This document shows, piece by piece, positions 52,482 to 58,650 of a stretch of DNA of 64,000 nucleotides. Both the position numbers and the translations under genes were made by a program. This stretch comes from Pseudoxanthomonas sp. YR558. Lineage in GTDB: Bacteria; Pseudomonadota; Gammaproteobacteria; Xanthomonadales; Xanthomonadaceae. Each line of letters opens with the position of its first letter. The stretch's first letter is position 1. The notes under the pieces were generated by a model. It saw only the letters and a program-made list of their open reading frames with translations, was not told where the DNA came from and made no database searches. The DNA lies in contig NZ_FPCI01000001.1 of the NCBI RefSeq assembly GCF_900116385.1, forward strand, positions 868,001 through 932,000, given 5' to 3'.

Positions 52482-53396
52482 GTGCCCGCACCCGAACCCG
52501 TCGTCTCCGAGCTGATCGAACTGCTGTCGCTGGAGCGGCTGGAAGACAACCTGTTCCGCGGCCAGAGCCGCGATATCGGCACCAAGTACGTGTTCGGCGG
52601 CCAGGTGCTCGGCCAGGCGCTGTCGGCTGCGCAGGCCACGGTGGGCGGGGGTGAGGAAGAGCGCCGCGCGCATTCGCTGCACGCCTACTTCCTTCGCGCC
52701 GGCAACATCGAAGCGCCGATCGTCTACGAAGTAGACCGCACGCGCGACGGCGGCAGCTTCTCGGTGCGCCGCGTCACGGCGATCCAGCACGGCCGCGTGA
52801 TCTTCTTCTGCGCGGCTTCGTTCCAGGCCGAGGAAGAAGGCGCCGAGCACCAGCTGTCGATGCCGGAAGTGCCGCAGCCGGAAGACATCCCGCCCGCGCC
52901 ACCGGTGCCCGCGGAGGTCATGGCCACGCTGCCGCCGAAGGTGCAGCGCTGGCTGTCGCGACGCGGCCCGTTCGAATTCCGCCACGTCTATCCACGCGAC
53001 GAGTTGAATCCGCCCAAGCGCCCGCCGTTCCAGCAGGTCTGGTTCCGGTTGAGCGAGCCGGTCGGCGATTCGCCCGAACTGCACCGCGCCCTGCTCGCCT
53101 ATGCATCGGATTTCCAGTTGCTCGGCACGGCCACCTACCCGCACGGCATCAGCTACTACCAGCCGAACGTGCAGATGGCGTCGCTGGACCACGCGCTGTG
53201 GTTCCACCGCCCGTTCCGTGCCGACGACTGGCTGCTCTATTCGATCGACAGCCCCAGCGCGAGCGGCTCGCGCGGACTGGCGCGCGGGCAGATCTTCGAT
53301 CGCCAGGGCCGTCTGGTCGCCAGCACCGCGCAGGAAGGCCTGATTCGCGTGGTGCCGGATGCCGAAGCGGCCTCGGCCGTCCCGGCGAAGGACTGA
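52482..53396 (+). CDS. tesB: acyl-CoA thioesterase II
   Basis: A 304-residue TesB: a double-hotdog enzyme hydrolysing medium- and long-chain acyl-CoAs. The start region ELIELLSLERLEDNLFRGQSRDIGTKYVFGGQVLGQAL and the C-terminal active-site region SLDHALWFHRPFRADDWLLY and SGSRGLARGQIFDRQGRLVASTAQEGLIRV are typical, with the Asp, Thr/Ser and Gln triad placeable. GTG start at 52482. The following small gene begins ten bases after the stop. Confidence 0.95.
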   Translation: MPAPEPVVSELIELLSLERLEDNLFRGQSRDIGTKYVFGGQVLGQALSAAQATVGGGEEERRAHSLHAYFLRAGNIEAPIVYEVDRTRDGGSFSVRRVTAIQHGRVIFFCAASFQAEEEGAEHQLSMPEVPQPEDIPPAPPVPAEVMATLPPKVQRWLSRRGPFEFRHVYPRDELNPPKRPPFQQVWFRLSEPVGDSPELHRALLAYASDFQLLGTATYPHGISYYQPNVQMASLDHALWFHRPFRADDWLLYSIDSPSASGSRGLARGQIFDRQGRLVASTAQEGLIRVVPDAEAASAVPAKD

Positions 53397-53406
53397 GGGA
53401 ATACCT

Positions 53407-53910
53407 ATGCGGCAAGTCTTTTCCAGCCAGCGCATCGAGACCGTCGAAGGCGTGGCCAAGCTGCTGAGCGATGCGGGCGTTCCCGTCTTCATCAGCAATG
53501 GCCGTTCGTACCACAGCAAGCGCGGCGGGCAGTTCAGCTACACCGAGCCGGTAAAGGCGCAGCTGCAGCCCGCCGTCTGGGTACGCCATGCCGAAGACCA
53601 GCCGCGCGCGCGCGAACTGCTGCGCGAGGCCGGCCTGATGGAGACCACGCGCCCTGGCTACGCGTCTACGCTGACGTTCCGCAGCGACCAGGAGCCCGTG
53701 GCCACGCCGCAGCGCTCCTGGGCCTGGCGCATCCGCCTGATCCTGCTGGCGCTGATCGCCCTGGCCGCCGTCGTCATGTGGATGCGGCGCCCGGTGCCGC
53801 CGCCCGCAGCGCCCGTCCCGGTGCCACGGGAACAACCCGCGACGCCCGCCCCCGCGAACGAGGCGCCCGAGGAAGACCGCATCCGCATCCAGCCCGCCAC
53901 CGGCGGCTGA
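53407..53910 (+). CDS. small membrane protein with DUF2007-like N-terminus
   Basis: A 167-residue protein. The first 85 residues (MRQVFSSQRIETVEGVAKLLSDAGVPVFISNG...) look like a DUF2007-type signal-transducing domain: an alpha/beta module that reads a linear order of small residues. A hydrophobic helix at about 105-123 (RLILLALIALAAVVMWM) and a Pro-rich tail follow. AGGGAAT precedes the ATG. It lies directly before the two membrane-tethered sigma factor genes with a 67-base gap; a regulatory link is only a suggestion. Confidence 0.72.
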   Translation: MRQVFSSQRIETVEGVAKLLSDAGVPVFISNGRSYHSKRGGQFSYTEPVKAQLQPAVWVRHAEDQPRARELLREAGLMETTRPGYASTLTFRSDQEPVATPQRSWAWRIRLILLALIALAAVVMWMRRPVPPPAAPVPVPREQPATPAPANEAPEEDRIRIQPATGG

Positions 53911-53977
53911 CCGCGCACGGTCACATCCGTCTTCCCGGCCCGTCAGGGTCATCAGCCCACCCGATGATCCTGACGCC

Positions 53978-55195
53978 ATGAATACCCTCGCCCTGGACCT
54001 GATGCTGCAGGCCGAACTGCCCGCCGCCACGCGCGGCAGCCAGGAGGCCTACGGCCGCATCGTCCACGCCTGCCAGAACACCGTCACCGCGATCGCACTG
54101 GCGATCACCCGCGACGTGCAGGCCAGCGAGGACATCGCGCAGGAAGCTTTCCTGAAGGCCTGGCAGCAGCTCGACCGGTTGAAGAACAGCGCCAGCTTCC
54201 TGCCCTGGCTGCGCCAGATCACCCGCAACCTCGCCCGCGACTGGCTGCGCGCGCAGCATGGCCGGCCGATGTCCGGTGAGGCCGCGGAGATCGCGATCGG
54301 CATGGCCGCCGATCCCGGCCCGACGCCCTCCGAACACCTGCTGCAGACGGAAGAAGAAATCGTCGCCACCGAGATCATTTCGTCGCTACCCGAGGACAGT
54401 CGAGAAACCTTGTTGCTGTACTACCGCGAAGGCCAGAGCTCGCAGCAGGTCGCCGAGTTGCTGGGCCTGAGCGACGCGGCGGTGCGCAAGCGCCTGTCGC
54501 GCGCGCGCAGCATGGTCCGCGACGAGCTGATGCAGCGCTTCGGCGAGTTCGCCCGCTCCACGGCACCGGGCGCGGCCTTCACCATGATCGTGCTGGGCGG
54601 GCTGGTCGGCGCGATGCCGGCGGCGAGCGCGGCGACGGTGATCGGCACTGGCGTCCTGGGCAGCGGCCTCGGGCTGGGCAAGCTGGGAACCGGCGGCGTG
54701 ACCACCGGCGGCATCACCGGCGGCGTGGCGGGCGGCTCGCTGGGCGTGATCTTCGAACAGATCACCCAGCATCCGTTCGCGCTCGGCGGGGCACTGGGCG
54801 GCGTGGTCGGCGGACTGATCGGTTACGCCTTCACCTGGTGGTACCTCGCGCGTTTCTGCCAGACCGCGCAGGAACGGCTGTTGGTGCGCCGGTTCATGGT
54901 GCTCAATACCGTCACCGGTTCGGCCTGGCTGTTCTGCCTGATGCTGGCGACGGTGCTCGCGCCCGGCTGGGCGGCGATCGCGACAGTGACCGTGGTCGGC
55001 ATGTGCGCGATCAACTACCAGTACCTGGTCATGCTGCCGCGGATCATGGACCCGATCCTCGCCTATCCCGCCAACGCGAAACGTCGACGCGGCTACGACT
55101 ACGTGATCGGCCGGAAAGCCGTCGTGCTGAGCAGCCTGCTGGCGATCGGCGCCATCCTGTTCGTACTGGTCAGGACGGAGCGCCTGCCCCTCTAG
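53978..55195 (+). CDS. ECF-type sigma factor fused to a membrane domain, copy A
   Basis: A 405-residue protein. Residues 1-185 form a sigma70-family factor: region 2 with SEDIAQEAFLKAWQQLDRLKNSASFLPWLRQITRNLARD (near 50-90) and region 4 with LPEDSRETLLLYYREGQSSQQVAELLGLSDAAVRKRLSRAR (near 135-175). Residues about 200-400 are an integral-membrane domain with five to six helices and a Gly-rich stretch at 230-260. So the sigma is tethered to the inner membrane and may be inhibited or released there. No separate anti-sigma gene is present. A paralogue follows after 90 bases. Confidence 0.85.
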   Translation: MNTLALDLMLQAELPAATRGSQEAYGRIVHACQNTVTAIALAITRDVQASEDIAQEAFLKAWQQLDRLKNSASFLPWLRQITRNLARDWLRAQHGRPMSGEAAEIAIGMAADPGPTPSEHLLQTEEEIVATEIISSLPEDSRETLLLYYREGQSSQQVAELLGLSDAAVRKRLSRARSMVRDELMQRFGEFARSTAPGAAFTMIVLGGLVGAMPAASAATVIGTGVLGSGLGLGKLGTGGVTTGGITGGVAGGSLGVIFEQITQHPFALGGALGGVVGGLIGYAFTWWYLARFCQTAQERLLVRRFMVLNTVTGSAWLFCLMLATVLAPGWAAIATVTVVGMCAINYQYLVMLPRIMDPILAYPANAKRRRGYDYVIGRKAVVLSSLLAIGAILFVLVRTERLPL

Positions 55196-55285
55196 TTCCG
55201 CTCCCTGTCAGGCTGGGTCACACTTCGGTCGGTCGGTCGTCGTGCCTGCATGGCCCGGAAGCACCGGGCGGAGCATGGAGACCGG

Positions 55286-56431
55286 ATGGACACCCTGGCG
55301 ATCGAACTTTCCCTGCGGGACGCCCTGCCCGCCGCCGCGCGTGGCGACCAGGCCGCGTACGGCCGCGTCGTCGCGCTCTGCCAGAACGCGGTCACGGGCA
55401 TCGCGCTGGCGATCACGCGCGACGTGCAGGCCAGCGAGGACATCGCTCAGGAGGCATTCCTGAAAGGCTGGCGGCAGCTGGCCACGTTGAAGAACCCCGA
55501 CAGCTTCCTGCCGTGGCTGCGCGAGATCACCCGCAACCTGGCCCGCGACCACCTGCGCGCCCAACGTCGCCGCCCGATGACCGGCGAAACCGCCGAGATC
55601 GCGCTGACGCTCGCCGCCGATACCGCACCCACGCCGGCAGAAACACTGCTGCAGACCGAACAGGAAGCGGCGGCGCGCGAAGTGATCGCCGCCCTGCCCG
55701 AAGACAGCCGCGAAGTGCTGCTGCTGTACTACCGCGAAGGCCAGCGTTCGCAGCAGGTCGCGTCATTGTTAGGCATCACCGATGCTGCGGTACGCAAGCG
55801 CCTGTCGCGCGCACGCCACTACGTGCGCGAGGAACTAATGGCGCGCTTCGGCGAATTCGCCCGCACCTCGGCGCCATCGGCGGCGTTCGCCAGCGGGGTG
55901 CTCGGCATGCTCGCGCTCGCGGCACCGCCCTCGGCGGGCGCGGTGGTGCTCGGCACCGGCGGCGCGGTCGCGGGCAAGGGATTGCTCAAGCTGTTGGGCG
56001 GCGCGCTGGGTGCGACCGCGTTCGGCACGCTGGTGGGCATCGGTGCGGTCTGGTTCGGCATCCGCAAATACCTGCGCGATCCGCTGGATGCGCGCGAACG
56101 CGACCAGTTGCTGCGCTACGGCACCGTCAACACGCTTGCCATCCTGCTCTTCATCGTCGGCATCAGCACGCTGGCCCGCGTGCCAGGCTGGATGCCGCAC
56201 ACGGCCCTGACCTTGGCCTACATGGCCGTCATCGGCTGGACGTCGGGGCGCTGGCTGCCGCAGATCCTGCAGCGTCGCCAAGCGCGCGACCTGGTGCTCG
56301 ATCCTGAGGGCGAGGGCCGCCGCATGCAGCGCCAGCGCACGTGGCGGGTCTGGGGCTGCGTCTTGGGATTCACGCTGGCGACCGCCGGCCTGTTCGCAGG
56401 CCTGGTGATGTCGGGCCGACTTTCTTTCTGA
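55286..56431 (+). CDS. ECF-type sigma factor fused to a membrane domain, copy B
   Basis: A 381-residue paralogue of copy A. The N-terminal sigma part is strongly conserved (DVQASEDIAQEAFLKGWRQL, PEDSREVLLLYYREGQRSQQVASLLGITDAAVRKRLSRAR), while the membrane domain (about 195-380, five helices) has diverged. GGAG supports the ATG at 55286; an upstream ATG in frame is less likely. The pattern, conserved sigma and diverged membrane half, suggests shared promoter recognition but different sensing. A strong hairpin follows the stop, ending the unit. Confidence 0.85.
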   Translation: MDTLAIELSLRDALPAAARGDQAAYGRVVALCQNAVTGIALAITRDVQASEDIAQEAFLKGWRQLATLKNPDSFLPWLREITRNLARDHLRAQRRRPMTGETAEIALTLAADTAPTPAETLLQTEQEAAAREVIAALPEDSREVLLLYYREGQRSQQVASLLGITDAAVRKRLSRARHYVREELMARFGEFARTSAPSAAFASGVLGMLALAAPPSAGAVVLGTGGAVAGKGLLKLLGGALGATAFGTLVGIGAVWFGIRKYLRDPLDARERDQLLRYGTVNTLAILLFIVGISTLARVPGWMPHTALTLAYMAVIGWTSGRWLPQILQRRQARDLVLDPEGEGRRMQRQRTWRVWGCVLGFTLATAGLFAGLVMSGRLSF

Positions 56432-56476: not shown

Positions 56477-57202
56477 TCAGCGGCGCGCGGGCCTGCCTGC
56501 GGCCAGCTCGTCCTTGGACAGGAAGCCGTCCTTGTTGGCGTCGAGTGCGTCGAAGCGCGAAGCCAGGCGGCCGTCCTTCACCTCGTCGCGCGACAGGCGA
56601 CCGTCCTTGTTCGCATCCGCACTCGCGAAGCGCTCGTCCATGCGGGCCTGCATCCGCTGATGGGCTTCTGTACGGCGCGCGGCGTCGGCCTGGTCGATCT
56701 CGGCGCGGGTCAGCTTGCCGTCCTTGTCGCTGTCGGCTTTGGCGAACCATTCATCGCGGCGCTGCTTGCCGCGCAGTTCGCGGTCGGCGCGATCGATCGC
56801 ACCGTCCTTGTTGGCGTCCAGTGTTTCGAAGCGTTCGGCGAATTTAGGATCGGCCGCGGCTTCTGCCCGGCTGACCTTGCCGTCGCCATCGGCGTCGAGC
56901 TTCTTGAAGGCGATCGCGCCGCGTTCCCCGCCGCGGTGGTGGCGGCCAGGGCCGTGCATGCCCTTGCGATGGGGACGCTCCTCGGCGCTGAGCTTGCCGT
57001 CGCCGTTCTTGTCCAGCTCGGCGAAGCGTTCGGCCAAGCGCGGGTTCGCGGCGGCCTCGGCCTTGTCGATCACGCCATCGTTGTTCTTGTCCAGGCTCGC
57101 GCGCGCCGGCTTGTGCGCGTCGCCCGCCTGGGTGGCGGCCAGCGCTGAACCGGCGCCGAGGGCGGCCAGGACGGCCACGAAAAGCAGGGTCTTGCGATTC
57201 AT
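56477..57202 (-). CDS. exported protein with seven EF-hand loops
   Basis: A 241-residue protein with a signal peptide (about residues 1-22, FVAVLAALGAGSALA) and seven EF-hand calcium-binding loops: DKNNDGVID, DKNGDGKLS, DADGDGKVS, DANKDGAID, DSDKDGKLT, DANKDGRLS, DANKDGFLS, each with Asp at positions 1, 3, 5 and a Glu or Asp near 12. A His-rich linker (RKGMHGPGRHHRGG) separates loops two and three. Probably a periplasmic or secreted calcium-binding protein. Start at the second of two adjacent ATGs, because AGGAG is six bases before it. Confidence 0.9.
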   Translation of the reverse strand: MNRKTLLFVAVLAALGAGSALAATQAGDAHKPARASLDKNNDGVIDKAEAAANPRLAERFAELDKNGDGKLSAEERPHRKGMHGPGRHHRGGERGAIAFKKLDADGDGKVSRAEAAADPKFAERFETLDANKDGAIDRADRELRGKQRRDEWFAKADSDKDGKLTRAEIDQADAARRTEAHQRMQARMDERFASADANKDGRLSRDEVKDGRLASRFDALDANKDGFLSKDELAAGRPARR

Positions 57203-57346: not shown

Positions 57347-57928
57347 ATGTCCCACGCCCTCGCCCGCGCGCTGTCCATCTCCGGCCACCCGATGCTGGTG
57401 CTGCCGCTCGCCGTGGTGGTGATCGCCCTGGTGCAGGGCGATCGCGGTGCGGCCGCCGGGGCCGCGCTGGGATTCGGCCTGTTCGCCGCCCTCGTCATGG
57501 GATTCTCGTGGTGGCAGGTGCGGCGCGGCCGCTGGGCGCACGTGGATGCCAGCGCGCGGCACGAGCGCGGCAGCCTCAATCGTTTCCTGTTGGTAGCGCT
57601 CGTGGCCGGCGCGGTGCTCGTGGCCTGGCGTGGCACGCAACCGCTGTTCGCGCTCGGCATGGCGATGTCGGCCGCGATGATTCTAGTGGCGATGGCCACG
57701 ACGCGCTGGTGCAAGCTGTCGCTGCACATGGCCTTTGCGGTGTTCGCGGCGTGGCTGCTGCGCGAGCTCGGCATCGCATGGATGCTGGCGGCGTTGTTGT
57801 TTGCCGCCGCGATCGCATGGTCGCGCCTGGCACTCCACCGGCATACACCACGCGATCTCGTCGCCGGTGCGTTGGCCGGCTCGTTGGCGGGTGCCGCCTT
57901 CTGGCCGCTGGCCGCGCGGTGGAGTTGA
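57347..57928 (+). CDS. PAP2-like membrane protein
   Basis: A 193-residue integral membrane protein with about six helices. The third PAP2 motif is recognisable as [22 protein letters not shown] near 160-180 (S-R-x-x-L-x-x-H-x-x-x-D) and KLSLHMAF near 125 resembles the second motif; the first (K-x6-RP) is not clear, so activity is uncertain. No Shine-Dalgarno; a TATGCT -10 candidate ends six bases before the ATG, so it may be leaderless. The bpt ATG is next to its stop and the two are co-expressed. Confidence 0.7.
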
Positions 57929-57930
57929 TG

Positions 57931-58650
57931 ATGGGCGAGAACGGCCACCCCATCGACGACCTGCGGCTGTTCCACACCGGCGAACATCCGTGCGGCTACT
58001 GGCCCGACCGCGTGGCGCGCGACCTAGTGCTGGACCCGCGCGACCCGCGCCTTCCACAGCTGTATCCGGATGCGTTGTCGTGGGGCTTCCGTCGTTCCGG
58101 CGACATCGTCTACCGCCCGCATTGCCGCCAGTGCCGCGCCTGCGTCGCGGTGCGCCTCCCGGTGGCAGACTTCGCGCCCGACCGCAGCCAGCGCCGCTGC
58201 GCCGCCCGCAACGCGCGCGTCGAGACGCGCATCGTCGCCGCCCTGCGCGGCGAGGAGCACCTGGCACTCTACCGGCGTTATCTGGCGGCCCGGCATCCGC
58301 TCGGCGGCATGGACAACCATGGCGCGACGGAGTTCGACCAGTTCCTCGTCGGCAGCTGGTCGCGCGGGCGCTTCGTCGAACTGCGCGAGGACGGCCAGTT
58401 GCTCGCGGTGGCGGTCACCGACGTGATCCCCGGCGCGCTCTCGGCCGTCTACACCTTCTACGAGCCGGAACTGGAAGCGCGCAGCCTCGGAACGCTCGCC
58501 ATCCTCAGGCAGATCGAGTGGGCGCAGCGCGATGGCTATTCGCATCTCTATCTCGGCTACTGGATCGACGGCCATCGGAAGATGGACTACAAGCGCCGTT
58601 TCCAACCGCTGGAGCACTTCGACGGTCGCCAGTGGCGCCGCGCCGAGTGA
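57931..58650 (+). CDS. bpt: leucyl/arginyl-tRNA--protein transferase (Bpt family)
   Basis: A 239-residue Bpt/ATE-family aminoacyl-tRNA protein transferase that attaches Leu to N-terminal Asp or Glu, creating N-degrons for ClpS/ClpAP. The family cluster [22 protein letters not shown], the Cys-rich [18 protein letters not shown] near 60-80, and [21 protein letters not shown] near 205-225 are all present. I use the ATG at 57931 (GGAG six bases upstream); the ATG three bases earlier overlaps the upstream stop. Co-transcribed with the PAP2-like gene. Confidence 0.93.

Follow-up and report, generated by a model that had tools for sequence, protein, structure and literature searches.

We analyzed a 64,000-nucleotide stretch of the Pseudoxanthomonas sp. 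YR558 genome (RefSeq assembly GCF_900116385.1, contig NZ_FPCI01000001.1, positions 868,001 to 932,000 of the forward strand; hereafter, the window), in which two tandem genes, S1 and S2, each encode a sigma factor of the extracytoplasmic function (ECF) type followed in the same polypeptide by a hydrophobic membrane half. The fusion of the sigma domain to the membrane half is conserved among relatives, and a promoter-like box, which stands at the sigma genes themselves and at exporter and peptidase genes, tracks the presence of the sigma gene across genomes. We proposed as the best explanation, with a probability somewhat better than even, that these genes encode ECF sigma factors that are held at the membrane, regulate their own transcription, and control the expression of exporters and exported peptidases.

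Two Tandem ECF Sigma Factors Fused to a Membrane Half

Both reading frames were intact on the forward strand. S1 occupies 53978-55195 (405 aa) and S2, with its preferred ATG, 55286-56431 (381 aa), with 90 bases between them; the ATG at 55286 gives a start matching that of S1 (MDTLAIEL compared with MNTLALDL in S1), and thus an alternative ATG at 55250 is probably 12 codons too early. In the S1 sigma half (aa 1-184; 53978..54529, + strand), Pfam identified Sigma70_r2 (residues 29-93, E 5.9e-15) and Sigma70_r4_2 (residues 132-178, E 1.7e-13), and the S2 sigma half (aa 1-184; 55286..55837, + strand), also assigned by its identity to S1, gave 3.5e-14 and 6.7e-13, respectively. All four matches were above the curated cut-offs, in agreement with the initial annotation, made from the sequence alone, that regions 2 and 4 are intact in both genes. 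TIGR02937 scored 98.8 bits for S1 and 91.0 bits for S2 against a cut-off of 42.9, and both proteins were assigned to the ECF type by the presence of PF04542 and PF08281 and the lack of any Pfam match to region 3. The phmmer matches of the S1 sigma half in the PDB were AlgU, sigma-E, and SigW, and Foldseek also supported the assignment.

The S1 sigma half is followed by a junction and a first putative transmembrane helix (TM1; aa 185-219, 54530..54634, + strand), which read MQRFGEFARSTAPGA and AFTMIVLGGLVGAMPAASAA, and then by the remainder of the membrane half (aa 220-405, 54635..55195, + strand), comprising a Gly-rich loop, the predicted TM2-TM5, and the stop codon. From aa 185 to 381 (55838..56431, + strand), S2 comprises its own junction and a membrane half of a second type (type B), with about five predicted TMs. 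The sigma halves were identical at 148 of 203 residues (S1 aa 1-203) and the membrane halves at only 46 of 173 aligned residues, which bears out the earlier description of close sigma halves and diverged membrane halves.

In a correction to the initial annotation, this architecture was not peculiar to the pair: a sigma-membrane gene (E <=1e-40) was found in 97 of 198 family genomes and 31 of 54 genera, usually as a single copy (the carrier counts were made by hand, and a few matches were weak, e.g., G095 at 1.5e-54). Every unbroken, complete Xanthomonadaceae copy had hydrophobic C-terminal spans. Control by the putative fused regulator can be studied with a single gene in a single reporter strain, and the architecture of a sigma domain plus a homologous, predicted five-span domain occurs in several phyla.

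A Promoter-Like Box at the Sigma Genes

The box pattern was first read from the DNA upstream of S1 and S2 and then sought in relatives. The S1 box, GGTCACAT-N14-CGTC (53919..53944, + strand), is separated from its ATG by 33 nt and the S2 box, GGTCACAC-N14-CGTC (55216..55241, + strand), by 44 nt; insofar as both genes have the same box, the promoter recognition of the two factors does appear to be duplicated, as had been suggested initially. When the 250 bases preceding each of 65 sigma-membrane genes of Xanthomonadaceae, among them S1 and S2, were compared with 11,400 random windows from the same loci, true sites included, the strict pattern GGTCAC[AG]-N15-CGTC was present in 55 of the upstream regions and 101 of the random windows, and a loose box in 60 and 162, respectively. 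All but one of the 55 strict-box genes had a gap of 24-47 nt between box and ATG. The box is a candidate for the bipartite, autoregulated promoter of ECF factors, with -35 and -10 elements ~16 bp apart. The second copies at loci L032 and L034, each directly behind the first copy, had no box. The genome contained five exact matches to GGTCACAY-N14-CGTC (S1, S2, and three others), and the reversed control none. Within the window, three matches were found at one mismatch or fewer, a number reached in 11 of 100 shuffles and so not unusual; thus, the weight of the box rests on its position and conservation.

Genes behind the Box

The three other exact boxes of the genome stood before genes for exporters and hydrolases. 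One precedes a MacAB-like exporter operon (L104/L215), in which a gene for an HlyD-family membrane fusion protein comes first and ABC_tran, FtsX, and MacB_PCD/FtsX genes come next; only 9 bases separate this box from the ATG of the fusion protein. The second stands at a TAP-family, lipoprotein-like hydrolase gene with ABC_tran and ABC2_membrane_3 genes behind it (L103/L216), and the third at an S9 peptidase gene whose product carries, by eye, an N-terminal export signal (L102/L217). Among 40 hand-chosen box-bearing stretches of relatives, in which targets were assigned by the resemblance of their first residues and one of each kind was scanned with Pfam, 33 had the same kinds of target: the fusion protein in 18 (16 by reading, with L171 and L174 assigned by coordinates), the hydrolase in nine, DUF2268 and S41 peptidase genes in two each, and an S9 peptidase and an amidohydrolase in one each. 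This predicted regulon would give the factor a concrete role in Xanthomonadaceae.

Two minor features of these sites were also observed. The box starts with GGTCACATCCGTC at S1 and the hydrolase gene and with GGTCACACTT at S2 and the exporter gene, which may hint at two sub-classes. A cluster transcribed divergently from the exporter operon (L215:7791-11716) contains genes for an ABC ATPase and an ABC-2 permease, a LuxR-type response regulator gene, and a gene whose product, by reading, resembles a histidine kinase.

The Box Tracks the Sigma-Membrane Gene across Genomes

The exact box was present in 87 of the 97 carriers of a sigma-membrane gene (189 sites, including the sigma gene's own box; reversed control, 55) and in 13 of the 101 non-carriers (14 sites; reversed control, 43). 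The difference in presence gave a Fisher p of 5e-30, compared with 0.49 for the reversed control, values that overstate independence because the genomes are related. Within the 11 genera having both states, counted by hand, the carrier mean was higher in 10 and the order was reversed in one (g25).

The exporter operon offered a second comparison. Because its fusion protein is encoded in nearly all genomes (190 of 198), the promoter can be compared between carriers and non-carriers. With a relaxed box ([GCT]GTCACA[ACT]-N13-16-[CT]GTC, at most 80 bases from the start) in 40 hand-picked genomes, the exporter gene had the box in 15 of 19 carriers and in 1 of 21 non-carriers. The lone non-carrier, G104, is a draft genome of 90% completeness whose genus also includes two carriers; the exporter box of the others was damaged (e.g., G174, G008, G072, and G078) or had left no trace. 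Thus, the box tracks the sigma-membrane gene, and its loss from genomes that have no such factor serves as an evolutionary test of the link between them. That the sigma-membrane factor itself reads the box is a strong inference.

A different sigma factor of the cell, above all one of the SigJ/ECF41 type, might instead read the box, with S1 and S2 as mere targets. The ECF41 promoter, TGTCACA-n16-CGTC (PMC3426412), is almost equal to our box, and the genome does contain a SigJ-type gene (L091) that scored above the NCBIfam SigJ cut-off and matched the PDB SigJ over its whole length (E 2.7e-49), although no SnoaL match was found in L091 with Pfam. The distribution argued otherwise. A SigJ-type relative (E <=1e-50) was found in 82 of the 198 genomes, and the box was present in 39 of 42 genomes with both genes, in 48 of 55 with the sigma-membrane gene only, in 4 of 40 with the SigJ-type gene only, and in 9 of 61 with neither. 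These counts indicated that the box follows the sigma-membrane gene and not the SigJ-type factor; most genomes that lack the sigma-membrane gene also lack the exporter box. We therefore consider reading by such a factor very improbable.

Predicted Topology and Proposed Control by the Membrane Half

Hydropathy analysis gave between four (threshold 1.5) and six (threshold 1.2) segments in S1 and four in the S2 membrane half. The AlphaFold2 helices and the charge counts are consistent with five spans in each protein, with the N-terminus inside and the C-terminus outside. The S1 model (51-row alignment; mean predicted local distance difference test, pLDDT, 73.2) had helices at residues 249-264, 266-291, 297-327, 331-361, and 379-399; block means were 73 to 94 from residue 261 onward and below 50 for residues 191-253, which include TM1. 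Span limits, set by hand from hydropathy and the models, place TM2-TM5 of S1 at approximately aa 266-285, 309-327, 332-351, and 379-398. Modelled alone, the S2 membrane half had a pLDDT of 72.8, a predicted template modeling score of 0.66, and a helix order similar to that of S1, with residues 1-20 and 23-54 of the modelled piece below 50. Loops placed in the cytoplasm contained four (S1 286-306) and five (S1 352-378) Lys/Arg residues in S1 and five and eight in S2; there were one (S1) and two (S2) in the TM1-TM2 loops, and two (S1) and one (S2) in the short C-terminal tails placed outside. A cytoplasmic sigma domain followed by five spans would fit these data, and the multi-spanning hydrophobic C-terminal domain named initially is thus upheld, with about five predicted spans. 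Pfam gave no family match up to E 0.1 in either membrane half, and the NCBIfam matches listed (25 of 107 and 25 of 103) all lay within the sigma half.

We proposed that the protein is an ECF sigma factor with its own membrane regulator, in which a cytoplasmic sigma domain is joined through a short conserved linker to a five-span domain that would hold it at the membrane in a mostly inactive state. When the inner membrane or the envelope is disturbed, the sigma domain would be freed, probably by a cut in or just past the first span, and the freed factor would bind RNA polymerase and read GGTCACAY-N14-CGTC. Positive feedback at its own gene would follow, S1 and S2 would likely read each other's promoters, and the MacAB-like exporter operon, the TAP-like hydrolase/ABC exporter operon, and the S9 peptidase gene would be the targets. 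The two membrane halves may respond to different signals. The likeness to known systems suggests that the membrane half restrains the sigma domain; proteolysis near TM1 is a tentative candidate for its release, and the nature of the targets points to envelope or peptide stress, perhaps membrane-active peptides, as the signal.

The membrane half might instead be non-inhibitory and simply anchor an always-competent sigma factor, with control mainly by transcription or by conformational change. ToxR/CadC-type one-component regulators activate transcription at the membrane. No anti-sigma domain stands between region 4 and TM1, as such an anchor would have it, and the short, conserved linker would also fit a rigid geometric role. 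Positive autoregulation that had no brake, however, would tend to stay on, and the described sigma fusions with C-terminal TM helices (IutY; ECF48, ECF52, and ECF53) are shown or expected to be inactive until proteolysis (PMC8999054). We regard a non-inhibitory anchor as unlikely.

Nor do we favor an IutY-like sigma/anti-sigma fusion, in which the C-terminal half would derive from a membrane anti-sigma factor and both site-1 and site-2 proteolysis would be needed. IutY is a precedent (PMC8999054), and the N-terminal sigma domain of S1 and S2, their C-terminal membrane part, and the want of an adjacent anti-sigma gene would fit such a fusion. Against this, S1 and S2 have five predicted spans rather than one or two and no large periplasmic domain, region 4 is separated from TM1 by only ~15 residues, and no anti-sigma family was matched in Pfam or among the NCBIfam matches listed. 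This reading therefore appears quite improbable.

Several observations count against a membrane-held, autoregulated factor as proposed here, beyond the relatedness of the genomes and the inclusion of the sigma gene's own box in the carrier counts. The inhibition, release, and signal of S1 and S2 are steps that we infer. The linker and TM1 were of low confidence in both AlphaFold2 models (TM1 mostly at pLDDT <50), a separate anti-sigma or zinc-finger domain could not be recognized in either extension with Pfam or among the NCBIfam matches listed, and no solved structural relative of the membrane half was found. A stand-alone membrane half, which would mark a former anti-sigma factor, was not found either: 12 of 17 membrane-half matches have sigma domains, and of the other five, two are named partial and three lie on contigs of 0.9-1.3 kb. 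With regard to the box, 10 of the 97 carriers had no exact match, and the reversed pattern averaged 0.57 sites per carrier genome and 0.43 per non-carrier genome, so that single sites can be chance; the relaxed exporter box was missing in carriers G097, G156, G179 (which has one further upstream), and G192, and 7 of the 40 stretches (L141, L145, L146, L160, L164, L167, and L172) had no clear or recurrent target.

A Candidate Cleavage Site at the Junction

In S1, the residues R187, A192, A196, P197, and F201 are invariant in the alignment (A1), and the junction ends in a small-x-small motif. All 60 Xanthomonadaceae sequences had the R, A, AP, and F at constant positions, and among 16 sequences of other lineages, two of which (L062 and L065) were wrongly anchored, the P was present in 13 and FT in 14. 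Small residues at positions 16 and 18 after the conserved Phe were found in 31 of the 60 Xanthomonadaceae sequences (shuffles: mean 12.7, maximum 25) and in 11 of the 16 others (shuffles: mean 2.8, maximum 9), a result that is only a lead, since a small-residue-rich helix end would look alike; L073 had no plausible site by eye. Together with a basic residue, the APxxAF linker, a short hydrophobic core, and a Pro, this small-x-small end makes TM1 resemble a signal peptide.

Signal peptidase acts as the site-1 protease on the separate anti-sigma factor RsiV (PMC6066255), and a signal-peptidase site-1 cut also takes part in the control of sigma-P through RsiP in Bacillus (PMC8844934). In the RsiV/sigma-V and RsiP/sigma-P systems, the site lies directly behind the membrane span, and S1 and S2 resemble them in conserving a small-x-small junction; there, however, cleavage falls on a separate anti-sigma factor, whereas in S1 and S2 it would fall on the sigma factor itself. 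A more specific scheme, which we consider doubtful, would make the sigma factor the substrate: signal peptidase I would cut the signal-peptide-like TM1 upon membrane damage sensed by the downstream four-span domain, a site-2 protease would then free the sigma domain, and tandem pairs would couple one promoter specificity and two sensors to one regulon of exporters and exported peptidases.

Two Types of Membrane Half

The membrane-half tree (60 rows) was split into groups of 44 and 16 with support of 100/100, with S1 in the former and S2 in the latter. In the sigma-half tree (65 rows), the Pseudoxanthomonas S2 fell in a 40-row Pseudoxanthomonas/Xanthomonas/Stenotrophomonas group (95/94), and both copies of L032 and of L034 grouped with L030 (87/79, not starred). 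Approximately unbiased (AU) tests rejected type B as a single clade with the sigma data (p 5.6e-4) and rejected two sigma groupings with the membrane data (p 7e-39 and 2e-5), p-values that are optimistic in all three tests because the groups were named after the trees had been seen. The trees included only five long-type rows, and the second copy of L003, two pieces of L033, L040, L047, L052, and L053 were left out. These results indicated that, as judged from the sequences, the membrane halves are of two types and the sigma halves cluster by lineage; such a conflict would be expected if sigma specificity is shared and the membrane halves are of two distinct types. The tandem pair, with the same box and divergent membrane halves, may represent a natural experiment on adding a second input to one regulon.

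We also considered recent gene conversion as the source of the conflict and rejected it, because within-genome codon identity at same-residue sites was not higher than that between genomes (0.68 for S1 and its own S2; 0.64-0.73 for S1 and six other S2-type copies). This leaves old homogenization or exchange of the sigma halves, or unequal constraint.

Distribution, Tandem Pairs, and Gene Neighborhood

Relatives were collected by one profile scan of genome contigs, which gave at least 460 matches, of which the best 80 were kept (L001-L080). The closest among the matches listed was that of Pseudoxanthomonas sp. Root630 (L001; 95% protein identity), and the database names of relatives were generic sigma-factor names. 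Two matches occurred in 18 family genomes, side by side in 12 and apart in 6. Tandem pairs were thus found in 12 of the 97 carriers, less usual, as had been supposed, but recurrent. Among loci L001-L057, seven had the pair (L001-L004, L031, L032, and L034, the second copy of L003 being broken). As to synteny in relatives, a check proposed initially, the order thioesterase, DUF2007, sigma-membrane, EF-hand, Ate-like was kept in 47 of the 57 loci (the exceptions being L032, L034, L041, L043, L047, L049, L051, L053, L055, and L056).

The corresponding genes in the window are an acyl-CoA thioesterase gene (52482..53396, + strand) and a DUF2007 gene (53407..53910, + strand; Pfam E 2.4e-6) upstream of S1, an EF-hand protein gene downstream of the pair (56477..57202, - strand), and a gene at 57928-58650 that, by reading, presumably encodes an Ate/Bpt-like protein. 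Pfam scans of other neighbors gave an amidase and, marginally, PAP2 (27.3 bits against a cut-off of 27.2). No anti-sigma gene was identified among the Pfam-scanned neighbors of S1 and S2 or in the Ate/Bpt-like next gene, as the initial annotation had noted, and no receptor gene among the scanned neighbors. At all six non-carrier loci examined, the thioesterase, DUF2007, and EF-hand genes were still present, and a search for S1/S2-like sequence gave only matches of 11 to 23 residues with E 0.15 or worse; the gap between the DUF2007 and EF-hand genes was 0.3-0.6 kb in four, with longer gaps at G160 (~1.5 kb) and G072 (3.2 kb). Because DUF2007 is kept where the sigma gene is absent, the small upstream gene, whose DUF2007 identity stands, is probably not part of the system.

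Beyond the family, all 16 proteins of L058-L073 (360-585 aa) had hydrophobic spans after the sigma part; the record titles were of other gammaproteobacteria, Verrucomicrobiota, a Planctomycetales, Hydrogenedentes, and a metagenome-assembled genome of Ponticaulis, the last cut short. L074-L079 were plain sigma factors of 187-203 aa, and L080 was a protein of 798 aa with two hydrophobic spans. The membrane halves of the short type (alignment A2, 32 rows) and the long type (A3, 11 sequences from other orders and phyla) were homologous in a single hhalign comparison (probability 98.3, E 1.8e-14, 162 columns).

A long-type pattern, TGTCACC-N15-GGCAC, occurred at 17 sites in six genomes (reversed control, 2), with its presence at all six sigma genes given by construction, since it was derived from their upstream regions. 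In three of the six genomes (G199, G201, and G202), it also preceded a gene for an exported CIA30-type protein that lies close to the sigma gene and is transcribed divergently from it (L229:1603-2193, L228:1722-2336, and L233; two were Pfam-scanned), and the other eight sites had no recurrent target except for two inside queA-like genes. Its -35 core, GTCAC, and its spacing agree with those of the Xanthomonadaceae box, but its -10 core differs.

Relation to Known Systems

IutY of Pseudomonas putida (ECF243) is a sigma/anti-sigma fusion of iron cell-surface signalling that is cut by Prc and RseP (PMC8999054). In IutY, as in S1 and S2, the sigma domain lies N-terminal to a membrane part within one polypeptide; however, IutY has an anti-sigma factor, whereas S1 and S2 have a putative five-span domain in which no anti-sigma domain was recognizable. 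ECF48, ECF52 (SCO4117), and ECF53 of Actinobacteria have a zinc finger, one or two TM helices, and extensions that can reach 400 residues (PMC8999054). S1 and S2 share with them a TM-bearing C-terminal extension, for which proteolytic activation is expected in ECF48/52/53, but differ in having about five predicted helices, an extension in which no zinc finger was found and whose periplasmic parts are short, and hosts of different phyla. ECF41, in which M. tuberculosis SigJ is listed, has a SnoaL-like extension, not a membrane domain (PMC8999054), and its targets are neighboring carboxymuconolactone decarboxylase, oxidoreductase, or epimerase genes (PMC3426412). A fused C-terminal regulator and a nearly identical promoter motif are common to ECF41 and S1/S2; however, the extension of S1 and S2 consists of hydrophobic spans, the box does not follow an ECF41-type gene, and neither a SnoaL match in Pfam nor a SigJ model among the NCBIfam matches listed was obtained for S1 or S2, so that we do not place them in ECF41.

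The fused ECF groups in the part of PMC8999054 available to us have one or two C-terminal helices, or N-terminal helices; a five-span C-terminal domain that has no anti-sigma domain is not described there, and several extension groups are listed without description. Likewise, none of the titles and starts of abstracts listed in literature searches dealt with this fused family. Thus, as far as these descriptions go, the S1/S2 family is a variant of the known sigma-membrane fusions that is set apart from the described groups.

Minor Observations on Relatives

Long-type proteins of ~540 aa (L060, L062-L067, and L069-L073; e.g., L066:5929-7539) end in extra Gly-rich repeats of the form GWIAxGDxAxGLLFAWGG...VGxxSxG, which had no Pfam match in the two scanned. 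Second, more distant matches of ~300-335 model residues were observed elsewhere in G021:C66, G042:C11, G066:C91, G083:C1:320176, G109:C11, and G126:C154. The frames of L003 (second copy), L033, L040, and L052 were broken, and the L047 frame (185 aa) ends directly behind its sigma half; either natural decay or assembly error may account for these copies. A Stenotrophomonas-like sigma-membrane locus was also present in L019, whose record title is Bacillus subtilis and which is probably a contaminated or mislabelled assembly.

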